Assembly: GCA_027318865.1 (NCBI GenBank)
Contig: DAHVOJ010000015.1
Location: 1 to 33,750 of the forward strand
DNA from: a bacterium
GTDB lineage: Bacteria; SZUA-79; Acidulodesulfobacterales; Acidulodesulfobacteraceae
Direction of reading: 5' to 3'
Length of the DNA: 33,750 nucleotides
Made by a program: the position numbers and the translations under genes. Positions 5,363 through 15,860 of this stretch are shown one piece after another. The number at the start of each line of letters is the position of its first letter. Positions within the stretch are counted from its first letter, which is position 1. The notes under the pieces are model-generated. The model was not told the origin of the DNA and did not search any database. It saw only the letters and a list, made by a program, of their open reading frames with translations.

Positions 5363-5439
<77 letters not shown>

Positions 5440-5558: not shown

Positions 5559-6602
5559 ATGAGAATTTATAAGCGCGGAAATATTTATTGGACTGAATTT
5601 ATAGCAGATAACAAGCGTTATCAGATGTCCACTAAGACTAAAGACAAAAAGCTTGCCGAAGAAATAGCGGCAGCTCTTCAGGCCGACGTGGTCCGGAATA
5701 AATTTAATATCCCTGCGAAATATAAAGCCGAAAAAGTTTTTTCGGAAGTCTGGGAACAATATTTTAAAAGCCAATCGACCGAAAAAGAAACGATAAGGCG
5801 CGCAGGTATAGCTTCTAAGCATTTCATTCCGGTATTTGAAAGCAAAAATATAACGGATATAACGTTAGGCGATATAAAAGCTTATCAGCTTCAGCGCAAA
5901 CTCGAAATTATGAATTTGGAAAAAAATATCGGAAAAAAGGATAGTCAAATATCTTACAGGAGCGTTAATTACGAACTTACTATATTGCACCATTTCTTTA
6001 ATTTCTGCATAGAAAAAGGCTACTTAGGTAATAACCCCTGCACAGGCATTAAAAAACTAAACGAACTATCCCGCCTTAAAACTTTATCCGACGAAGATAT
6101 CGAGAAGCTCATTAATGGAGCTACGAATAAGCTGACTAAAGACCTTATTACTTTTTTAATTTTAACCGGCTGCCGCAAAGGCGAAGCCTTAAACCTTAAA
6201 TGGGACGACGTGGACTTACAAAACGACGTAATAGCGATAAAGGGGACGAAGACTAAGTACGACAGGTATATTCCGATAAGCAAGCCCCTGAAAGAGCTTT
6301 TGAGCCGAATTGAAAAAGTCCAAGACGTTTTATACGTATTTCAAAGAAACGGGGCAAAATTGACCGATTTTAAGCGTTCATTCCATACGGCGTGTAAAAA
6401 TGCCGGATTAAAGGATATGCACATTCACGATTTAAGGCACGTATTTGCAAGTAAAATGGTTATGAACGGAACGTCGCTATTTATAACGGGGGAGCTCCTC
6501 GGTCATAGAACAACCCAGATGACGAAAAGATATTCGCATTTAGTCCCAAGCACTTTACGCAAGGCCGTTGACGACGTTTGGAATAAGGACGATAAAAACT
6601 AA
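5559..6602 (+). CDS. Tyrosine recombinase (integrase)
   Basis: 347-residue phage-type integrase that would insert and excise the element at the tRNA-Phe site. The N-terminal 55 residues form a small arm-binding-like domain, about 60-160 the SAM-like core-binding domain, and 170-340 the catalytic domain. Catalytic residues are all present: R206 (TGCRKGEALNLKW), K231/K233 (GTKTKYDR), H290 and R293 (HDLRHVFAS), H316 (LLGHRTTQ) and Y325 (KRYSH). Reads away from the tRNA gene, 120 bases from it. Its promoter is overlaid by an inverted repeat shared in part with the XRE gene promoter, so expression is likely repressed in the integrated state. No clear ribosome binding site before the ATG (ACTTTTTTATG), so translation may be weak. 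Confidence 0.95.
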   Translation: MRIYKRGNIYWTEFIADNKRYQMSTKTKDKKLAEEIAAALQADVVRNKFNIPAKYKAEKVFSEVWEQYFKSQSTEKETIRRAGIASKHFIPVFESKNITDITLGDIKAYQLQRKLEIMNLEKNIGKKDSQISYRSVNYELTILHHFFNFCIEKGYLGNNPCTGIKKLNELSRLKTLSDEDIEKLINGATNKLTKDLITFLILTGCRKGEALNLKWDDVDLQNDVIAIKGTKTKYDRYIPISKPLKELLSRIEKVQDVLYVFQRNGAKLTDFKRSFHTACKNAGLKDMHIHDLRHVFASKMVMNGTSLFITGELLGHRTTQMTKRYSHLVPSTLRKAVDDVWNKDDKN

Positions 6603-6775: not shown

Positions 6776-6819
6776 TTTACGCCAGCTACGGCTAATTTTT
6801 TACGCCAGCTACGGCTAAT
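6776..6819. repeat. Two 21-bp tandem direct repeats next to the replication genes
   Basis: Copies at 6776-6796 and 6799-6819 are identical, each with the core ACGCCAGCTACGGCTAAT, at a 23-base period. The second copy touches the stop codon of the initiator-like gene. Only two copies exist, fewer than in typical iteron arrays. Confidence 0.6.
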
Positions 6820-7574
6820 CAATTTTTTGAATATTTGTCAATAATTATCTGCCTTTCTCCGTCTTTTTTAGTAATTTTAAAATCTTCAATTATGAATTCT
6901 TTTTTAAGCTCGCTTAAGGCTCTTTTAATTGCTCTTTGCTCCTCGGACTTTCTCGACGCTTGAATGACTGCCCTTTCTATTAAAAGACTTTCTGTAAATA
7001 TTTCTCCGCTATTACTTGCGATAAATCCGTATAGGTTTTTTCCCGTTGCGCTCAATTTAGAATATTTAGAAATATCTATTTGTAGGGTTTTATCGTTGCA
7101 AGCATTATAAAAATTCTTATCAAGAAATAATGTTAATATGCCTGTTTGCGCTTGAAATGAGTATTTTAGAAGTGGGTGTATGCCGACTTCGCTAATCGTT
7201 TTCTTTTTTTCAATTTCAAAATAAGTAATATCTAAATTCTGCAAACGACGGATAGAACCTAAAATTGACGTTTCGTCGTGGCTATTAACTATTTTTTTAA
7301 TGTCTTTTATATTTACGTCTATTCTAATAATATTGCCAAAGTCTTTATCTGAAACCGATATTGTCTTTACTGTATTATTTTTTTGAGATATATACATAAT
7401 ACAAAATAGTTTTTCTGCGTCCTCAGTTGTCACGTATTCAACCGCTCTTGCGACTACCTTGCCGTGCGCCGTATTATGCGTTATAAGCATTGCTCCGCTT
7501 TTTTTTGATACCGCGAAAGGCGGATACTTGAGTACCCGCCTGTATATGCTTACTTTATCGTCTTTCTTTATCAT
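6819..7574 (-). CDS. Probable replication initiator protein (RepC-like)
   Basis: 251-residue basic protein downstream of, and overlapping by 4 bases (ATGA), a DnaB/RepA-like helicase gene. The same helicase plus initiator order is found in IncQ-type plasmids (repA-repC). The C-terminal 90 residues look like a winged helix: YSKLSATGKNLYGFIASN, then RKSEEQRAIKRALSELKKEF with a basic DNA-reading stretch. The N-terminal half (YRRVLKYPPFAVSKKSG, then two possible winged-helix-like segments) I cannot match to a named family by eye. Tandem 21-bp repeats and several palindromes lie immediately after it and could be its target. The initiator role is inferred from context and fold hints; a transcriptional regulator is the alternative. 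Confidence 0.5.
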   Translation of the reverse strand: MIKKDDKVSIYRRVLKYPPFAVSKKSGAMLITHNTAHGKVVARAVEYVTTEDAEKLFCIMYISQKNNTVKTISVSDKDFGNIIRIDVNIKDIKKIVNSHDETSILGSIRRLQNLDITYFEIEKKKTISEVGIHPLLKYSFQAQTGILTLFLDKNFYNACNDKTLQIDISKYSKLSATGKNLYGFIASNSGEIFTESLLIERAVIQASRKSEEQRAIKRALSELKKEFIIEDFKITKKDGERQIIIDKYSKN

Positions 7575-8935
7575 AATTCACCTGCCTTGCCTGCCGTTCT
7601 GGGTCTGCCCGCAGGCCTTTTATTTTCTATATTATTATAATAGCTAACCGCTTCGGTGTCGTTGTCGGGCGAGGTTAGCATTGAGTATGTTTCCAGCGTC
7701 TCTTCGTCTATCCATTCCTGCCATTCAAGCGGTATCGGCTCCGGAATTTTTATTGCGTTGACCTTTTCAAAAAACAAAAAAAGTTGTTTTTTATCATAAT
7801 TTCCTTTTTCGTTTTTCACTAATTTTTTGTCCAGCAGCAAAGTAAATCTTGTATCGTCCGTTATGCTTGAAGCTCCGCGAACCTTATTTTTACCGTCTTG
7901 CTCGGCTTTTGAAACATGACTATTAATTAAAATTGCGCAGCCGGTTTCATAGCTTATTTTTTCAATACAACGAAGAATATGCGACATTTCGGAGCTGTCG
8001 TTCTCGTTTAGGTTAGACAGACGGCGTAAAGTATCGATAACGACAAATTTTTTATCCTTGCAAAAATCGTATAATTTGCGCTCTGCTTCCTTGTTTATTT
8101 CAATTTTATTATAGTTTTTTTCTGCTAATTTGAAATTTTTTCCGTAGAGGCAGGCAATTTGTAGGTTTTCTATAAGTTTATCGCTTTCTTTTATATTAAA
8201 ATATTTAGCAAGATTATATAATCTATGATGTATCAGTTCCTCATCGTCTTCTAAACTTATATAACCGCATTTTCCGCGTCTTTCTTGCTTATTTTCAAAC
8301 AAATTGAGATAATTAAGTCTGCATGTTATATCTGCATAAGACAATAAAAAAGCTAATGACATATAGCTTTTTCCGCTTCCGCCTGTTCCTGCAAAAATTC
8401 CGACTGTTGACTCCCTGAAACCTGTAAAAATAAATTTCAAGGGCGCGGGTTTTTGAAAAACTAATAATTTTTCAAATAATTTAATCGGTTCTTGCTCTTT
8501 TTCATAATTTTCTATTGCCGTGAATTTCTGTAAAAATTCGTCTGTTCCTATTTTTTTTGCTGTAAAATCATTGATTAAGTTGAGTCTCTGCCTCTCTGCG
8601 CTCAATTCTTTTATTTTCTTAGCGTAAAGCTGCGGATTAAAACTATTAGGCGTAAAATCAAGCAGTTCGGATATATCAACTATCCAATCCCTGTTTTCGT
8701 CGATTTTTTTTAATTCGGCAACGATAAGGGATATGTCAAAAGGCTGTTCATCTCTTATACAAACATTAACAATTGCACTGTATATATCCCTATATAATTT
8801 ATCGTAGAAGTCGTTAATTTGCAGGTCTTCTATATCATAAAGCCCCGCGCCATTCTCGATAAAAAGGCAGGCTAAAAGCGATTTTTCGAATATTTTCGAA
8901 TCATTTGAATTTTGAAAAGTGTGACTGGCAGTCAT
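7571..8935 (-). CDS. RepA-like RecA-fold ATPase with DnaB N-terminal domain
   Basis: 454 residues. The first 115 resemble the DnaB helicase N-terminal helical domain (SLLACLFIENGAG... DFYDKLYRDIYSAI... QLYAKKIKEL). Residues about 165-400 are an AAA_25/RepA-type hexameric ATPase: Walker A GTGGSGKS (183-190), acidic ISLEDDEE (226-233), Walker B FVVIDTLRRL (297-306), sensor-like ILINSH (335-340) and RGASSITDDTRF (353-364). In IncQ plasmids a shorter RepA without the DnaB domain unwinds the origin. This fusion probably loads and unwinds in one chain for element replication. AAGGAG ribosome binding site, own promoter upstream. Confidence 0.85.
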   Translation of the reverse strand: MTASHTFQNSNDSKIFEKSLLACLFIENGAGLYDIEDLQINDFYDKLYRDIYSAIVNVCIRDEQPFDISLIVAELKKIDENRDWIVDISELLDFTPNSFNPQLYAKKIKELSAERQRLNLINDFTAKKIGTDEFLQKFTAIENYEKEQEPIKLFEKLLVFQKPAPLKFIFTGFRESTVGIFAGTGGSGKSYMSLAFLLSYADITCRLNYLNLFENKQERRGKCGYISLEDDEELIHHRLYNLAKYFNIKESDKLIENLQIACLYGKNFKLAEKNYNKIEINKEAERKLYDFCKDKKFVVIDTLRRLSNLNENDSSEMSHILRCIEKISYETGCAILINSHVSKAEQDGKNKVRGASSITDDTRFTLLLDKKLVKNEKGNYDKKQLFLFFEKVNAIKIPEPIPLEWQEWIDEETLETYSMLTSPDNDTEAVSYYNNIENKRPAGRPRTAGKAGEL

Positions 8936-9040: not shown

Positions 9041-9070
9041 ATCTTTATTATTTCATAAAATTATGATTTA

Positions 9071-9092
9071 CAGTAATAAAAAAGTATGACTA
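9071..9092. repeat. 22-bp operator-like repeat, copy 1
   Basis: Identical, in inverted orientation, to 14759-14780. It contains AAAAAAGTATGACTA. It sits about 30 bases upstream of the replication promoter -35; the other copy sits 10 bases upstream of the mobilization promoter -35, so one protein may act on both. Confidence 0.6.
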
Positions 9093-9147
9093 TCAATAAT
9101 AACATTATGCTATAAATATAAATAATATAAATGCTTATAACTTATAA

Positions 9148-10065: not shown

Positions 10066-10227
10066 CTAAAACTTCACGCCCGGATATTTCCCGAAAGTCT
10101 TATTTGCGCTCGCAGGTTTAAAGTTTGTTTTCTGTTTTGCTTTCTGTGTTGGAAAAGATGAAAATATGAAATATGCTGCTATTATCGCAAAGCAAGCGAA
10201 TATTAATGTTTTAGTTTTCTTGCTCAT
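10066..10227 (-). CDS. 53-residue single-pass membrane mini-protein
   Basis: ATG at 10227 overlaps the stop of the upstream gene (ATGA) and is preceded by AAGGAGG, an excellent ribosome binding site, so this short frame is probably real. The product begins MSKKTKTLIFACFAIIAAYF, a charged start followed by a 19-residue hydrophobic segment, then a 30-residue Lys-rich tail ending GKYPGVKF. No perfect lipobox (IFAC), so an anchored rather than acylated protein is likely. Small proteins of this kind occur beside VirB6 genes (VirB7, entry-exclusion proteins), but the sequence itself shows no match. Confidence 0.65.
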   Translation of the reverse strand: MSKKTKTLIFACFAIIAAYFIFSSFPTQKAKQKTNFKPASANKTFGKYPGVKF

Positions 10228-10532
10228 TTTTTAGCCTCCTTATTATTAATGTTATTTACAGTTTTTTGAATAGACGCTATCGGATTAACCCAGCTTATTC
10301 TCAATGGATACCAGCTATCAATTTTAAACATATCGCCCGTAAGCGTGAAAAATACGAGAGCCATAATGAAGACGATAATAAAGCCCTGCAACTTTGATAT
10401 TCTTTTCTTTTTTAGGAATTCGTCGATTTTATCGGCCACTTTAGCCATTTGTTCGTTTCCGATAGTTTCAAATTCTTCAAGTCTTTTCTCGATTTTCTCG
10501 CTATTTTCCTGCAATTTTTTCTTAATCGTCAT
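10224..10532 (-). CDS. Small membrane protein with cytoplasmic helix
   Basis: 102 residues: an amphipathic coiled-coil-like helix (about 3-40), one membrane segment (LQGFIIVFIMALVFFTLTG, about 48-66), and a short C-terminal domain. The start overlaps the VirB6-like stop by 4 bases and has a GGGGGAGG ribosome binding site inside the preceding gene. Coupling on both sides (ATGA junctions) ties it to the VirB6-like protein and the 53-residue mini-protein. Function unknown; an inner membrane component working with the VirB6-like channel or an entry-exclusion factor are reasonable possibilities. Confidence 0.65.
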   Translation of the reverse strand: MTIKKKLQENSEKIEKRLEEFETIGNEQMAKVADKIDEFLKKKRISKLQGFIIVFIMALVFFTLTGDMFKIDSWYPLRISWVNPIASIQKTVNNINNKEAKK

Positions 10533-11677
10533 TCTTTTTTACCTCCCCCTCTCGCTTTATCTCTGATTGCTTGCGCGCCTTTCATTATTGCCGTCGGACC
10601 GCCGCCGACGGCCATTGTTGCAACTGAAACGACTGTCATCGCTACCCCGACTACGCCGCTAAAGCTCATATTCGGCATACCGGAAACGATTTCGCCCGCG
10701 ATAGACGGAACTTTTAAAATTAAGTATGCAAAGATAGCAATTAAAAATAAAATAGCCAATACAGAGCCGAACGTTTTGGGGCTTGCGTTTAATGCGCTTG
10801 AGCTTGCAACGGCAGACAAAGTCCCCTTTTCAAGCGCCATTACGACGTATAGCAAAAAGTAACTTAAACAAGATGTAATTAGAAACTTTAGCCAGCCGTT
10901 CCAAAGAAACTCTAAAGGTTTAAATATCATAAAAGGCACTAAAATATAGCCTGAAATTAAAGCAATAGCAATGTATGCATGAACTAAAACTACAGTGCCT
11001 AATACGATAAGCCCCAATATCAGCAAAACAAGCGTTACGAAGAAAAAAATCAAGGCAGTGATCGCTTCGCCGACTCCAGTAAGCGACAATAAAATTCCAC
11101 TCACGAGCGTGCCCGAATTTGCGCTTGCTTCGATGATGTATTTGTATACATTAAGAACCAGTAGACCGTAATAACTCATAACAGAGTCGTGAGTTCCTGC
11201 GGCGATTTGCCCCAGATTCCGAAAGAAAACGGCCACGCCGCCGACAAAGAAGAAATTGTATCCGGCAAGAAGACCCCTTACGACCATTAGAAAAAAGAAA
11301 TAAAGCATAAACTCTCTTATTCCTTTATCCCCGAACATAAGATTCTGAATAGACCACAGGATTAAAGAGATAACGGCCAAGTAAAAGAAAAGCTGTCCTG
11401 AAGCGTTAGTTAAATTAGCCGCTATTTTCGGCCCTGCTAGGTCGATTGCTCCGCCCAGCAGATATACTTTCCTGTAAATGCCCGCGAAATTTTGTCCCAC
11501 AGGGGTTTTCCTCGCGGTAGTCGCCGGCGGGCTGGTAACTGTAACTTTCCCGGTAGGACTGGTTGAAACCGTTAATGACCCGCCGCCTACCGAGACCGTT
11601 GTGCTCCCCGCCGCATAGACTTTACCGGCGAAAGAAAATACCGACAATATTAGTAAAAATAAAATAAGTTTTTTCAT
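10529..11677 (-). CDS. VirB6/TrbL-like conjugation membrane protein
   Basis: 382 residues with a signal-like N-terminus (first 22 residues, ending VYAAG), a Ser/Thr-rich linker, then about seven membrane segments. The order fits VirB6/TrbL inner-membrane channel proteins: an aromatic segment YILVPFMIFKPLEFLWNGWLK (a family hallmark), and a C-terminal stretch VPSIAGEIVSGMPNMSF like the TrbL VPSLxxxLxxG motif, before a basic tail. In type IV secretion VirB6 helps form the channel through the inner membrane. It is preceded five bases away by the VirB5-like gene. No other T4SS core gene is in the element, which makes its job here puzzling. Confidence 0.75.
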   Translation of the reverse strand: MKKLILFLLILSVFSFAGKVYAAGSTTVSVGGGSLTVSTSPTGKVTVTSPPATTARKTPVGQNFAGIYRKVYLLGGAIDLAGPKIAANLTNASGQLFFYLAVISLILWSIQNLMFGDKGIREFMLYFFFLMVVRGLLAGYNFFFVGGVAVFFRNLGQIAAGTHDSVMSYYGLLVLNVYKYIIEASANSGTLVSGILLSLTGVGEAITALIFFFVTLVLLILGLIVLGTVVLVHAYIAIALISGYILVPFMIFKPLEFLWNGWLKFLITSCLSYFLLYVVMALEKGTLSAVASSSALNASPKTFGSVLAILFLIAIFAYLILKVPSIAGEIVSGMPNMSFSGVVGVAMTVVSVATMAVGGGPTAIMKGAQAIRDKARGGGKKE

Positions 11678-11681
11678 GAAA

Positions 11682-12635
11682 TTATCTCCCTATTCCAAAA
11701 TTAGTTACGTTTGGATATGTTCCGAATCCGCTCCCAACTTTTGCCGGCGGAGGAGTAACCGTAAATACTGGAGTGTTTTTTTCTATCGCGACCGACGCCG
11801 CCTGTTGCGAGTCTTTCGCTCCTGACTGCAAAGCTTCCAATTTAGCTTTTTGCGCTTCAAGTTTATTAAGCTGATTTACTTCTTCCGTCAAAGCTACTAA
11901 AGCCTGACCGTTAGCCTGCTCCGCCGCAACCTGACCGTGGGCGGCCGCAACGTTTGCCCCCAGTTGCGATATTAAATGCTGGTTACTCTGCGAATTATTA
12001 AGAAGAGATTGACCGTATGCGGCAGTCTGGGCGGCTTGCGTATTTGCTGCGTTATATTGATTATATGCGCCCGTTTGCGCTTCCTGCGGAGTCTCATTCA
12101 CAAATCCGTAACTGCCGCTTCCGTATTCGTTATAATAATTCTGCAAAAACTGGCTCATCTGCGGATTGCCGAGAGCTTTTTCCTGAGCGATTATGTTTTG
12201 CATAGAAGATTCTTCGCTCGTCAAAGTATTCTTAAGCCCCTGAAGTTCGGCCGCAGGCATCATAACCGTCCCTTCGATGTTATTTACCGCTCCGATTAAG
12301 CTTGAGCTTTCCTGCTGGAGCTCCTGAATCTGATTCATTAATTGCTGTCCCTGCCGGGCGTATTTTAAAGCGGATAGTTCTACTTCGATTTTAGACTCCG
12401 CCGTTTGAATGTATGCATTAACGGCCGTCAAATGCTGAATAATCGACTGAATCCCCGCCGTAACGGGGTCGAAAGTGATAATTCCCTGCGCCGAAGCCGT
12501 TAAGGGAGTAAAAGCAAAAAATAAAAATACCGCTAAAAAAATCATTAAAGCGGTATGACGGATTTGATATATCGGTGTTAAGCCGCTTAACACCCTCAAA
12601 GCCTTGATATTACTCATTTTCTTAAAAAATTTCAT
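11682..12635 (-). CDS. VirB5/TrbJ-like conjugation protein
   Basis: About 317 residues from ATG 12635; the GTG at 12644 is in frame but AGAGG lies just before the inner ATG. A hydrophobic segment near residues 31-49 ending ASAQG indicates a secreted protein. The rest is helical and rich in Gln, Ala and Asn, with the pattern QSIIQHLTAVNAYIQ..., QLMNQIQELQQE and VALTEEVNQLNKLEAQKAKLEAL characteristic of TrbJ/VirB5, the minor pilus-tip component that contacts recipients. The C-terminus is Gly/Pro-rich. Its ribosome binding site overlaps the relaxase stop codon. Family assignment rests on pattern and neighbour VirB6. Confidence 0.7.
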   Translation of the reverse strand: MKFFKKMSNIKALRVLSGLTPIYQIRHTALMIFLAVFLFFAFTPLTASAQGIITFDPVTAGIQSIIQHLTAVNAYIQTAESKIEVELSALKYARQGQQLMNQIQELQQESSSLIGAVNNIEGTVMMPAAELQGLKNTLTSEESSMQNIIAQEKALGNPQMSQFLQNYYNEYGSGSYGFVNETPQEAQTGAYNQYNAANTQAAQTAAYGQSLLNNSQSNQHLISQLGANVAAAHGQVAAEQANGQALVALTEEVNQLNKLEAQKAKLEALQSGAKDSQQAASVAIEKNTPVFTVTPPPAKVGSGFGTYPNVTNFGIGR

Positions 12636-12640
12636 AAAAA

Positions 12641-13996
12641 TCACCTCTTTAATTTGTTTTCATTTTTTTTAGTAAATTCTTGAGATACTTGATGTTGCTG
12701 CATTCTTCGTAATTCATCGCTATATTTTTTATTTTCGTCTGGTTTTTCTATTTTCGGCGGTTTTGGTTCAGGTTTTGGCGTCTCAAGTTTTTGAAATTCT
12801 GATTCAAGTTTGTATTTTCGTATGCTTATATCATTACTTTCGATTATTAATTTTTCTCTTTTTTTGTTTGATATGAATTTTGAATTGATTTTTTTATCTA
12901 ATTTATCGATATGTCTCTGAAGCTCATTAATTTCTTTTTTGATTTCCGATTTTTTGTCTTTTTCTTTTGGTTTTTCTTCTTTTTTAGCAGGTTCTTTAGT
13001 AGGTTCTTGGTTTTTCTGTTTTTTTTCCCAGCACATATCCTTGCCCTCCTGAATTTCTTTAACTTTATTTTTTATTTTCGCTTCTTCGCTGCCTGTGATT
13101 TTGCTGAATATTTTCTTTGTCTTTTCCGCAAAATCTTTAAACTTTTCATTAAATTGCTTTTCCTCGCTCTTTAATTCGCTGTATTCCCTTAATGCTTTTT
13201 TTCTTTCTTTTTCTTTCAAAAATTCGGAGAAAATCGGATAACGCTTGATATATTCTTGCTTTAAAGCTCCTTTATCGCCCGCTAATTCCGCTTTTTGTGC
13301 CCGCTTAAACGCCTCGCAAACCCACCTCGGATACCTTTTCCTTGCCTGTTTTTTGTCGTTTTGCCTGATTTCTATGCCAAGCTCACGATTCAAAAAAATG
13401 CCAACGTCTCGTTTAAAACTATCTAAAAACATATAATTAGACTTAGATAAGTCCCTTATGTTTTTCCCGTTTGCGTCGACAGGCGAAAATATAATGTGAA
13501 TATGGGGGTTCTTCATATCTTTTCCGCCTGCGTGGAGCGCGAAGTTGTATGTCGAACACGGTTCAAAATATTTCTTTCCGAATTGGTCAGCGAATTTTTT
13601 TAAGTTTTCGTCAGCTTTGTTCAGAAACTCTGTAGGAACGGGAACGATTAATCTGCGTTGGATAACTCGTTTTGGATTGTCTGATAGTAATTTTTTTTCC
13701 AACTCGTTAAATTTTTTCTTTGCTTCCGGATCGCCGACGGCTGACAAACATTCTTCCGGTCGCTCGATATATTCAGCGAACGCCGCCGCTCTGCCCCTAT
13801 CTTTTACACCCGAAATGACCGAAGCCATGACCGATACGCTCCACGTCTTATTACCGCCGAAGCTCCCTTTATGATTTGTAAAATTACCTCTCGCCGCTCC
13901 GCTTGAAATTCTCGGTTCATTCTTTTGACTTGGCCGTCTTGTGTATTTATCTTTCCAGTCGTGATTTGAAAAGTCGTGCCTCGGTTCTATCTTCAT
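12641..13996 (-). CDS. HUH relaxase, MobA/MobL-like (MOBQ type)
   Basis: 451 residues. The N-terminal about 250 form the relaxase: the histidine triad of the metal site is H155 (FALHAGG) and H165/H167 in NPHIHIIFSP, typical of MobA/MobL proteins. A candidate catalytic tyrosine is Y76 in FAEYIER. The enzyme should nick one strand at oriT and pilot it covalently. The C-terminal 200 residues are a highly charged Lys/Glu coiled-coil tail without primase or helicase motifs. An oriT-like structure lies 28 bases before its start codon. It shares an operon with a small accessory gene upstream and VirB5/VirB6 genes downstream. Confidence 0.85.
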   Translation of the reverse strand: MKIEPRHDFSNHDWKDKYTRRPSQKNEPRISSGAARGNFTNHKGSFGGNKTWSVSVMASVISGVKDRGRAAAFAEYIERPEECLSAVGDPEAKKKFNELEKKLLSDNPKRVIQRRLIVPVPTEFLNKADENLKKFADQFGKKYFEPCSTYNFALHAGGKDMKNPHIHIIFSPVDANGKNIRDLSKSNYMFLDSFKRDVGIFLNRELGIEIRQNDKKQARKRYPRWVCEAFKRAQKAELAGDKGALKQEYIKRYPIFSEFLKEKERKKALREYSELKSEEKQFNEKFKDFAEKTKKIFSKITGSEEAKIKNKVKEIQEGKDMCWEKKQKNQEPTKEPAKKEEKPKEKDKKSEIKKEINELQRHIDKLDKKINSKFISNKKREKLIIESNDISIRKYKLESEFQKLETPKPEPKPPKIEKPDENKKYSDELRRMQQHQVSQEFTKKNENKLKR

Positions 13997-14023: not shown

Positions 14024-14067
14024 AAAAGCACCGCAGGTTATCCCCCAACGGGGGCTATTTGGGCAAA
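14024..14067. other. oriT-like structure, copy 1
   Basis: Two conserved blocks, 14024-14043 (AAAAGCACCGCAGGTTATCC) and 14051-14067 (GGGGCTATTTGGGCAAA), flank a 7-base centre that folds as CCCCC-AAC-GGGGG. The same two blocks recur inverted at 15422-15466 with a different centre that can also pair. Position between relaxase and accessory genes is where oriT is expected. Confidence 0.5.
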
Positions 14068-14071
14068 AGCA

Positions 14072-14467
14072 TTAAATTCCCTTTTTTAATTTTAAATATT
14101 CCTCGCCATCTCTTACAACAGTTTCGAATTTTTCGGCGTTAAGTTCGAAATAATCGTTACTTTTATTTTCAGTTTTTAAGATTTTTTCGATTTCGTTTTC
14201 GATTTCTTTATCGCTTGAAAGTTCTAAAATTTTTGGATAATATTTCGTTACTACCCCGCCCGCTAAAAATTTAACGTGTTCCCTGCGGCTTCTGTCCTTT
14301 TTATTTTTTTGTATTTCGATTAGTTTAATTTTTTTATCTGTAAGTTTTCTTTCAAGTTCAACTTTCTTTCGAATCAGCGATAAGTATTCATCCACCGCAG
14401 TTTTTTTATCAATATTTTTAATTTTTTGTGAAACTTCTTTAATGGAATTTTTGAGTTCCTCGAACAT
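14072..14467 (-). CDS. Mobilization accessory protein (TraD/MobC-like)
   Basis: 131 residues. The N-terminal 60 are a charged helix, followed by RSRREHVKFLAGGVVTKYYPKIL, which resembles the RxxRTRxLIxLGGLV motif of the small TraD/MobC proteins (PF06412) that assist MOBQ relaxases at oriT. It lies just upstream of the oriT-like structure and relaxase gene, and downstream of the HTH gene, with ribosome binding site GAGGTG. The match is by motif only, so the call is tentative. It would bind DNA near nic and shape the relaxosome. Confidence 0.5.
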   Translation of the reverse strand: MFEELKNSIKEVSQKIKNIDKKTAVDEYLSLIRKKVELERKLTDKKIKLIEIQKNKKDRSRREHVKFLAGGVVTKYYPKILELSSDKEIENEIEKILKTENKSNDYFELNAEKFETVVRDGEEYLKLKKGI

Positions 14468-14475
14468 AATTCACC

Positions 14476-14670
14476 TCATAATTGAACAGGTTTGTTTTTA
14501 TTCTGTAATAGATAATTTTTTATATCTTCGACAGAGAACCGATATTGTTTTCCGACACGAAAATAATCAATTTCGCCCTGTCTCATCATACGCCTAAGCG
14601 TAAGCTTAGATACTCCGAGCATATTAAGCACTTCGCCCATCTGCAACATTTGTTTTTTAGTTTTTGTCAT
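14476..14670 (-). CDS. Excisionase-family HTH protein
   Basis: 64 residues consisting of one MerR-like helix-turn-helix of the excisionase family (HTH_17, PF12728): MGEVLNMLGVSKLTLRRMMRQG then the wing IDYFRVGKQYRFSVEDIKNYL. First gene of the minus-strand mobilization operon, eight bases before the accessory gene, with GGAGG ribosome binding site. In an integrative element the natural role is recombination directionality (Xis) or transcriptional control of the operon. Co-transcription with the relaxase would tie excision to mobilization. Confidence 0.8.
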   Translation of the reverse strand: MTKTKKQMLQMGEVLNMLGVSKLTLRRMMRQGEIDYFRVGKQYRFSVEDIKNYLLQNKNKPVQL

Positions 14671-14758: not shown

Positions 14759-14780
14759 TAGTCATACTTTTTTATTACTG
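14759..14780. repeat. 22-bp operator-like repeat, copy 2
   Basis: Inverted identical copy of 9071-9092. The outer TAGTCATAC (14759-14767) is also mirrored by GTATGACTA at 14816-14824, making a 9-bp dyad 48 bases apart. The rest of the 314-base gap 14671-14984 holds AT-rich divergent promoters only. Confidence 0.6.
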
Positions 14781-14910
14781 ATAGTTATAAAGCTATGATT
14801 TGCCGTCATAATAACGTATGACTATTAATCATAATTTTGCTTGATATAGTGTTATAAATATTATAATATTATATATATAAACGGTATATTTGAATTGCAG
14901 ATTTTGGAAA

Positions 14911-14984: not shown

Positions 14985-15365
14985 ATGAAAAAGAAAGTAG
15001 AGAAAATCGATAACGAAATTTATGTTGAAATTGGAAAACGGCTAAAAGATACAAGGGAACGGCTCGGATTTTCGCAACTGCATATTGCGAACACATTTAA
15101 CATAGGCTATCAGTCGCTTCGTCGTTACGAAGACGGCAAGACTCCTATTCCGATTCATTTTCTCGCTCAATTTGCAGAGTATTGCGATATTCAATTATCT
15201 GAATTAATTCCCACCACTGAAAAAAACAAAGAATTTAATAAAGATGTCTTGTTGGAAAAAAATATATTCCAAATTAAAAAAATTTACGAAACCGGAACCG
15301 AAAAGACGATAAAAATCACAAATGCTGCTATCGATTTTCTATCAAAGATAAAAGATATAATTTAG
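14985..15365 (+). CDS. XRE-family HTH transcriptional regulator
   Basis: 126 residues. Residues about 14-72 form a lambda-repressor-like HTH (IGKRLKDTRERLGFSQLHIANTFNIGYQSLRRYEDGKTPIPIHFLAQFAEYCDI), with a C-terminal helical region probably for dimerisation. It reads divergently from the mobilization operon. Shared repeats before its own gene and the integrase gene make it the likely master repressor of the element. Ribosome binding site AAGGGG. Confidence 0.88.
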   Translation: MKKKVEKIDNEIYVEIGKRLKDTRERLGFSQLHIANTFNIGYQSLRRYEDGKTPIPIHFLAQFAEYCDIQLSELIPTTEKNKEFNKDVLLEKNIFQIKKIYETGTEKTIKITNAAIDFLSKIKDII

Positions 15366-15421: not shown

Positions 15422-15466
15422 TTTGCCCAAATAGCCCCGCAAGCGTGGATAACCTGCGGTGCTTTT
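15422..15466. other. oriT-like structure, copy 2 (inverted)
   Basis: Blocks 15422-15438 and 15447-15466 are exact reverse complements of the two blocks at 14051-14067 and 14024-14043. The 8-base centre (GCAAGCGT) differs from copy 1 but still allows CCGC/GCGTGG-type pairing. It lies in front of a small membrane protein gene near the right end. Confidence 0.5.
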
Positions 15467-15810: not shown

Positions 15811-15860
15811 AGGACTGAAAATCCTCGTGTCGACGGTTCGATTCCGCCTCTCGGCACCAC
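15811..15860 (+). repeat. attR: 50-bp direct repeat of the tRNA-Phe 3' part
   Basis: Exact copy of 5390-5439, without the tRNA 5' half, so it is not a functional tRNA gene. It is the displaced original 3' end of the tRNA gene. 15861-15994 beyond it holds nothing I can name. Confidence 0.92.

Follow-up and report, generated by a model that had tools for sequence, protein, structure and literature searches.

A VirB5-like and VirB6 gene pair carried without further type IV secretion genes by mobilizable elements of the Acidulodesulfobacteraceae, and its possible role in refitting a helper mating machine

The stretch of DNA analysed here (the window; 33,750 nucleotides, contig DAHVOJ010000015.1 of assembly GCA_027318865.1, family Acidulodesulfobacteraceae) is C28 of genome G000, which comprises 1.46 Mb in 121 contigs and is 86.9% complete. 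A 10.4-kb integrative mobilizable element (IME) sits within the tRNA-Phe gene of the window and carries a relaxase together with VirB5-like and VirB6 genes of a type IV secretion system (T4SS). The element is bounded by an exact 50-bp direct repeat, of which one copy (attL, 5390..5439, + strand) forms the 3' part of the tRNA-Phe gene (5363-5438) and the second (attR, 15811..15860, + strand) follows at a spacing of 10,421 bp. In G003, a genome of the same genus (locus L178), the tRNA-Phe site is uninterrupted with both flanks present, and six of its seven left-flank open reading frames (ORFs) are 82-90% identical to those of the window, the seventh being 60% identical. The tRNA-Phe of G012, G015 and G005 adjoins the right-flank gene, as at the window site; the window left-flank genes were not found in these three genomes and among the relatives were found only in G003. 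Terminal repeats and an uninterrupted counterpart, two of the marks of an IME, are both present.

The relaxase (MobA/VirD2-like, 451 aa, 12641..13996, - strand) is followed on the same strand by genes for a VirB5/TrbJ-like protein (320 aa, 11682..12644), a VirB6/TrbL-like inner-membrane protein (382 aa, 10529..11677) and two small proteins of 102 residues (10224..10532) and 53 residues (10066..10227), each with one hydrophobic segment. The GTG start of virB5 overlaps the relaxase stop (GTGA), a 4-nt gap separates virB5 from virB6, the 102-residue ORF starts inside the virB6 stop (ATGA), and the last two genes are joined by a further ATGA. Because the five genes overlap or lie 4 nt apart, they probably form one operon. 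A preliminary description of this DNA had placed the virB5 boundary at 12635, which corresponds to an internal ATG in the same frame. The relaxase profile match falls just under threshold (PF03432, 21.8 bits against a cut-off of 24.6); homologues of the protein are found next to mobC at an equivalent position in each of the eight other elements described below, and MobC homologues adjoin the relaxase in all nine.

The identification of VirB6 is secure at the level of sequence, with a PF04610 (TrbL/VirB6) match at E 1.8e-10 and 41.4 bits against a cut-off of 25.9, a match to TIGR02783 at 3.8e-7, below cut-off, and a 92-column profile alignment to one plasmid TrbL (E 1.9e-5, probability 78%). 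For the VirB5-like protein the matches to TrbJ_Ti (TIGR02780, E 0.0057, 16.1 bits, cut-off 100.55) and to TrbC (PF04956, 21.1 bits, cut-off 27.9) are both below cut-off, no PF07996 match was returned by the Pfam scan, and VirB5 sets compared as profiles with an annotated TrbJ (L192) gave no significant similarity (probability 5.1% and 1.8%). However, alignment with the VirB5 of L094, a larger T4SS locus whose VirB4 lies on a separate contig, shows 27% identity over 319 columns (E 4e-12); this intermediate in turn has matches under the cut-off to TrbJ_Ti (6.5e-7) and PF07996 (0.0048). The window protein is also 61-66% identical to the protein encoded between VirB10 and VirB6 in locus L093, where VirB8, VirB9 and VirB10 are Pfam-confirmed. 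Homology to a T4SS VirB5 and position in the operon therefore both argue for a VirB5, and the protein is named VirB5-like because no VirB5/TrbJ profile matches it above the curated cut-off. VirB6 is thus borne out directly by the profile searches proposed in the preliminary description, and VirB5, whose direct profile evidence is weak, through an intermediate homologue and operon position. Searches further afield gave no match for window VirB6 (tblastn against 72,556 plasmids, E 1e-3), for L094 VirB5 and VirB6 against the same plasmids, or among the viral contigs searched; in sequence searches of the PDB the VirB5 alignment returned five chance-like matches (best E 0.038) and the VirB6 alignment none. 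The VirB5-like proteins and the 53-residue protein end in a common C-terminal pattern (FGTYPNVTNF and FGKYPGVKF, respectively); in the distant L094 VirB5, FGNYPAASGF is followed by a few further residues.

Nine elements of this kind occur in 6 of the 30 family genomes (one each in G000, G009 and G021, two each in G014, G022 and G023), so that the block does recur in other elements, a point that the preliminary description had proposed to check. The variable segments of VirB6 are at residues about 21-65, 166-225 and 346-382. PF04610 was run on all 30 family genomes and the VirB5 profile search covered 19 of them; the VirB6 profile matches 8 of the 146 genomes searched, all of the window's family. 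In G001 and G027 virB5 and virB6 lie inside T4SS loci, and G021 additionally holds a truncated virB6. When 60 family T4SS and plasmid reference proteins were compared with the nine elements by tblastn, the T4SS hits were confined to VirB5 and VirB6 as far as the element contigs reach (the contig of G023c47 breaks off within virB6, and G009c55 and G023c69 each adjoin the start of a contig); a ParB-like protein, ArdC and one unnamed plasmid protein also matched some of the nine. The claim that a relaxase, a VirB5-like protein and VirB6 travel with no other T4SS gene is therefore supported. Within G000 itself PF04610 matches the window only, and one match to the coupling-protein family PF02534 lies on another contig (C38).

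The nine elements are built on three kinds of backbone. The first comprises the tRNA-Phe elements (G000 and, twice, G014), which are flanked by exact repeats of 50, 50 and 52 bp, the window integrase being 73% and 95% identical to those of the two G014 elements. The second carries other integrases beside tRNA-Thr, tRNA-Gly and tRNA-Lys, with a second repeat copy found only for the Lys element; G023c69 is assigned here through its integrase. The third (G009c55 and G023c47) has a Rep3 initiator and a longer relaxase, which in G009c55 bears a Toprim domain and in G023c47 is 79% identical to that protein. The virB5-virB6 pair is placed after the relaxase in the first and third backbones and before mobC in the second.

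In six of the nine elements virB5 and virB6 are separated by a gene for an EexN-type entry-exclusion lipoprotein of about 90-98 residues, or 126 in a single ORF. Five of the six match the NCBIfam EexN model (NF033894) at 36.1-39.1 bits against a cut-off of 33, and the sixth scores 32.5 bits at the level of the ORF and 33.7 when the genome search takes in its neighbours. The gene is absent between virB5 and virB6 in the window and G023c47, both with 4-nt gaps, and in G022c6, with a gap of 112 nt. Across the family, EexN is matched at E<=0.001 in 15 of 30 genomes, 11 of them over the cut-off, and in none of 14 control genomes. An exclusion role for the block, shared with the 102- and 53-residue proteins, had been suggested beforehand as one alternative; the exclusion part is instead the lipoprotein of the relatives, which the window lacks, and the two small proteins of the window match no exclusion family in profile scans.

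The remaining genes of the window element frame this block. On the + strand lie a tyrosine-type integrase (347 aa, 5559..6602), named by eye and position, and an HTH_3 repressor-like protein (126 aa, 14985..15365; PF01381 4.2e-5, above cut-off). On the - strand lie a 251-aa protein perhaps involved in replication, judged by position (6819..7574; no Pfam family above cut-off), a DnaB-like helicase or AAA_25 ATPase (454 aa, 7571..8935; PF13481 4.5e-22, PF00772 6.2e-11), the MobC-like accessory protein (131 aa, 14072..14467), named by position with no Pfam family above cut-off, and an HTH_17 excisionase-like protein (64 aa, 14476..14670; PF12728 1.1e-11). Long imperfect inverted repeats connect positions 9053-9108 and 14759-14838, and a 17-nt perfect inverted pair is formed by 14051-14067 and 15422-15438; these are possible iterons, regulator sites or parts of an origin of transfer.

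Relatives of the pair stand in conjugation loci of the same family, here called type D (VirB8-9-10, VirB5, with or without EexN, and VirB6). A 23-kb contig of G027 (C41) encodes VirB8, VirB9, VirB10, a 109-aa protein, VirB5 (64% identical to that of the window) and VirB6 (47%), together with ParA/ParB-like genes named by eye; there is no EexN between its virB5 and virB6 and no VirB4 match on the contig. The end of C198 in G023, a genome that also holds two cassette elements, is a decayed copy of this operon reaching near the contig end. Its VirB10 is broken into two overlapping frames 90-98% identical to G027's and is followed by two small unrelated genes, a homologue of the 109-aa protein, VirB5 (70%) and a lipoprotein that resembles EexN but scores below cut-off (28.8 bits). 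G001 (C58) represents a more distant type (VirB5 27%, VirB6 34%; VirB8 40% and VirB9 49% identical to G027's), with TrbI and a coupling protein identified by Pfam, a VirB11-like protein recognised by eye and VirB4 on another contig (C71). On sequence comparison, virB5-(eexN)-virB6 thus forms the tail of a conjugation operon native to the family. The T4SS with related VirB5 and VirB6 that the preliminary description had called for is thus found in G027, and since this operon has the closest VirB5 and VirB6, the type of the putative helper can be named. In the VirB6 tree a single clade of cassettes is not rejected (p-AU 0.19), and in the VirB5 tree the cassettes form one side of a branch with support 58/30; because the trees are compatible with the G027 genes lying either inside or outside the cassette radiation, no direction of transfer is claimed.

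Other T4SS loci of the family were also considered. The F-type loci of G022 and G023 were rejected as helpers, their VirB5 and VirB6 having no hit to those of the window among the matches listed; one F-type VirB5 is 30% identical to the G023 C198 VirB5 over 176 residues. Five half-looking loci (L072, L075, L076, L077 and L080, in G025, G026, G010, G027 and G005) have VirB11-, topoisomerase-, VirB2- and VirB3-like genes and VirB4 in a row, with no VirB5, 6, 8, 9 or 10 nearby; apart from the PF03135 hits their genes were named by BLAST among themselves and by eye, and some of the loci reach contig ends. A division of labour in which IMEs supply VirB5 and VirB6 to half-systems of this composition (type E) would be in keeping with the unrelated genes that follow VirB4 in G027 (C69), G026, G005 and G025 (C104), and with the lack of a D-type VirB10 match in G005 or G025, the latter having a single TrbI hit. 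Yet the contigs of G010 and G025 (C1) end just after VirB4, G005 has three TrbI hits that are not all typed, VirB8-10 would remain absent from such a hybrid, and cassette elements and E-type VirB4 fall in different genomes here, making this arrangement very unlikely. Several further features of these regions were seen: an IscB-like protein, named by eye, adjoining VirB6 of the G027 locus (L093:576-1628); a stretch of G023 that looks like a CRISPR array from its recurring translated repeats, flanked on one side by cas-like genes and on the other by the decayed remnant of VirB10, VirB5 and EexN (L189:5400-11000); what seems to be a MoxR-like AAA ATPase at the expected VirB11 place in the T4SS loci L096, L151, L084, L097 and L099 (by eye and BLAST); and genes resembling type IV CRISPR (csf) by eye on G025 C1 (L154:6289-11789), a contig with ParA/ParB-like genes and VirB4.

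Two comparisons bear on how the cassette has moved. G023c47 and the window, which belong to different backbones, share VirB5 at 89% and VirB6 at 95% identity (partial) while their relaxases are only 36% identical, and the switch in identity lies where virB5 begins. The 97-aa EexN proteins of G014c51 and G009c55 are the same in sequence, and their eexN DNA is 95-100% identical over about 300-400 columns, whereas the adjoining end of virB5 and start of virB6 are 62% and 56% identical. These contrasts in sequence identity indicate that the cassette has been swapped between relaxase backbones and that eexN has been exchanged separately from it. The ratios of non-synonymous to synonymous substitution (dN/dS, NG86, window against up to four relatives) are 0.18-0.19 for VirB5, 0.08-0.14 for VirB6, 0.17 for the relaxase, 0.08-0.10 for the integrase, 0.08 for MobC, 0.19 for the 53-aa protein and 0.15 in two of three comparisons for the 102-aa protein, the third being saturated; dS is above 1 in several comparisons, and dN/dS by YN00 was 0.10-0.33 where obtained. 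Between the window and G023c47, both without eexN, the values are 0.18 for VirB5 and 0.10 for VirB6. Because these ratios are low, the parts of the element are kept under purifying selection and are not decaying.

The element could alternatively be the remnant of an integrative and conjugative element (ICE) that lost most of its T4SS genes. Since virB5-virB6 ends the conjugation operon of the family, such a reduction may have produced the first ancestor. As an account of the present elements, however, it is largely refuted and very improbable: nine elements on three backbones carry this pair and, as far as the contigs reach, searches of them turned up no further T4SS gene, dN/dS is 0.08-0.19 (NG86), and the cassette has passed between backbones since it arose. 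Neither of the two outcomes named beforehand as refuting, absence of similarity to VirB5/VirB6 and the remaining T4SS genes adjacent in relatives, was seen in the form given, the second as far as the contigs of the nine elements reach.

We consider it reasonably likely that the IME supplies its relaxase and a VirB5-VirB6 pair that refit a related helper T4SS from the donor side, in the manner of SGI1, probably escaping exclusion. In such a scheme the element would bring its own relaxase and a cassette resembling the tail of the local conjugation operon into a cell in which a helper with a related type D T4SS is present. The VirB5 and VirB6 of the element, expressed from the putative relaxase operon, would compete with or replace the helper subunits in the stalk and at the pilus tip; a current review describes VirB6 as the inner-membrane platform of the stalk, topped by VirB5, which then makes up the tip of the pilus (PMC12624023). 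The relaxase would then deliver element DNA through the hybrid machine, which may carry this DNA better and would not be blocked by exclusion in cells that hold the helper, and relatives that keep eexN may also block redundant entry. The analogy is with SGI1, whose TraG, TraH and TraN substitute helper subunits and whose VirB6-like TraG disables exclusion (PMC5389848). The benefit to the element would most likely be to evade exclusion.

A role on the recipient side, in which the block mainly shields its host from incoming conjugative elements and VirB5 and VirB6 serve as decoys or as partners of EexN, could account for the lipoprotein gene in six of the nine elements and for its spread through half of the family genomes, with none in the controls. 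It is nevertheless unlikely. The window, G023c47 and G022c6 keep virB5 and virB6 without an intervening eexN, the first two with the low dN/dS given above, and virB5 overlaps the relaxase gene; moreover, for pKPC_UVA01 exclusion was obtained with cloned trbK alone in the recipient, and transfer depended on trbJ and trbL (PMC8923210). Because VirB5 and VirB6 are kept without eexN and virB5 overlaps the relaxase gene, the donor-side role is favoured over pure exclusion.

Several observations weigh against a donor-side refitting that escapes exclusion. The host genome G000 has no match to VirB4 (PF03135), VirB10 (PF03743) or the EexN profile, and VirB4 of type D or E is present in none of the 6 cassette genomes compared with 8 of the 24 others (Fisher p 0.16), which gives no sign of co-occurrence. 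The exchange of eexN independently of VirB6 runs contrary to a tight VirB6-EexN pair and disfavours a strict one. According to PMC8923210, no donor partner of TrbK is known for IncP, and exclusion by pKPC_UVA01 required TrbK in the donor too. Finally, the direct profile match of VirB5 is weak, and the AlphaFold models of VirB5 (6 sequences, all-helical, mean pLDDT 48.5) and VirB6 (7 sequences, mean pLDDT 41.8) are too poor to use. The last two points would be compatible with a function of the two proteins outside conjugation, the VirB5-like protein acting for instance as a secreted adhesin, but that protein always occurs together with VirB6 and a relaxase and is homologous to the VirB5 of T4SS operons, which makes this highly improbable.

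Going beyond donor-side refitting, virB5-(eexN)-virB6 may be a mobile adapter cassette that at least three mobilizable backbones swap as a unit and share with a conjugation operon, the inner eexN being exchanged separately, so that elements and helpers would be engaged in an arms race over exclusion identity by means of interchangeable parts. We consider this possible but less likely than not.

A side finding concerns the relaxases. Of the nine cassette elements, four (G014c13, G022c3, G022c6 and G021c3) have a relaxase that ends, at its extreme C-terminus, in a tail of about 20 residues, PDAF[ST]xDLxNRLxKxKGxGR, that is also found on unrelated mobile-element proteins: ArdC, Fic, AbiEii, a DUF6036 nucleotidyltransferase and HEPN proteins (representatives Pfam-confirmed) and a 160-aa protein. 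Carriers lie at L002:6898-8109 and 8146-8628, L005:5064-6296, L006:5074-6303, L072:7299-8648, L073:13562-15371, L074:7273-8067, L076:6913-8256, L080:11081-11674, L086:202-795, L090:7158-8381 and 14085-14561, and L154:18369-19244. A model built from nine seeds matched 20 of 1262 C-termini at E<0.1, the ORFs being drawn from loci biased to mobile DNA; 14 matches were below 1e-8, the seeds themselves accounting for nine of these, and the weakest include chance-like ones. The same model matched neither N-termini nor reversed C-termini. When the tail is removed, the bodies of ten carriers are related in two pairs only. The tail is possibly a T4SS export signal common with possible helpers. The window relaxase lacks it and ends in QEFTKKNENKLKR, resembling by eye the endings of G014c51, G009c55 and G023c47; a model of these four endings matched no other ORF at E<0.05.

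Elements of this composition have been described before. GIsul2 carries TrbJ-TrbK-TrbL and was proposed in 2017 to subvert the mating-pair formation (MPF) apparatus of a helper (PMC5704250). The IncP island of Burkholderia glumae and relatives combines a relaxase, TrbJ, a 69-aa TrbK-like protein and TrbL, and is likewise proposed to subvert the helper MPF and also to invade helper-bearing cells (PMC5704250). The window element resembles the IncP island in its own relaxase, VirB5 and VirB6 with no other MPF gene named, and GIsul2 in adjacent VirB5- and VirB6-type genes without the rest of a T4SS; VirB5 and VirB6 without another MPF gene are what the window contains. Because both were described earlier, and interpreted in the same way, the composition is not new. 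Set apart by description rather than by sequence, the two differ from the window element in several respects. The IncP island occupies guaA and GIsul2 is without a relaxase (both according to PMC5704250), whereas the window element lies in tRNA-Phe and has a relaxase. The proteins of the island are IncP-related, and the closest relatives found for those of the window element belong to a local T4SS operon. The window element also differs from the island in a MobC-like gene without a Pfam match and in the absence of eex. The TrbK/Eex gene between VirB5 and VirB6, a feature of both, is absent in the window and present in six of the nine elements.

SGI1, the precedent cited in the preliminary description, is likewise an IME that encodes mating-pore subunits, which there replace those of the helper (PMC5389848). 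Its subunits are the F-type TraN, TraH and TraG on about 42 kb (PMC5704250), in contrast to the P-type VirB5-like and VirB6-like proteins on 10.4 kb in the window, whose profile matches are of the TrbL/TrbJ type. The IncN virB5-eex-virB6 and IncP trbJ-trbK-trbL tails have the order and families seen in the relatives, with eex in six of nine, but, unlike the window cassette, belong to a complete transfer region (PMC8923210). The differences here are the lineage, the integration site, a VirB6 without a BLAST-level plasmid relative, the three backbones, the separate exchange of eexN and the members that lack it. The capture of VirB5 and VirB6 was apparently independent of GIsul2 and the IncP island. 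A literature search, thin for this bacterial order, brought up no description of comparable elements from it.

Together these observations suggest that mobilizable elements of an uncultured lineage have, seemingly separately, kept the same two parts of the mating machine as GIsul2 and the IncP island. With elements that have eexN, elements that lack it and a conjugation operon with near relatives of both subunits, the relation between VirB6 and exclusion becomes testable through comparison, and the same set would allow comparison to address why such elements carry exactly VirB5 and VirB6.

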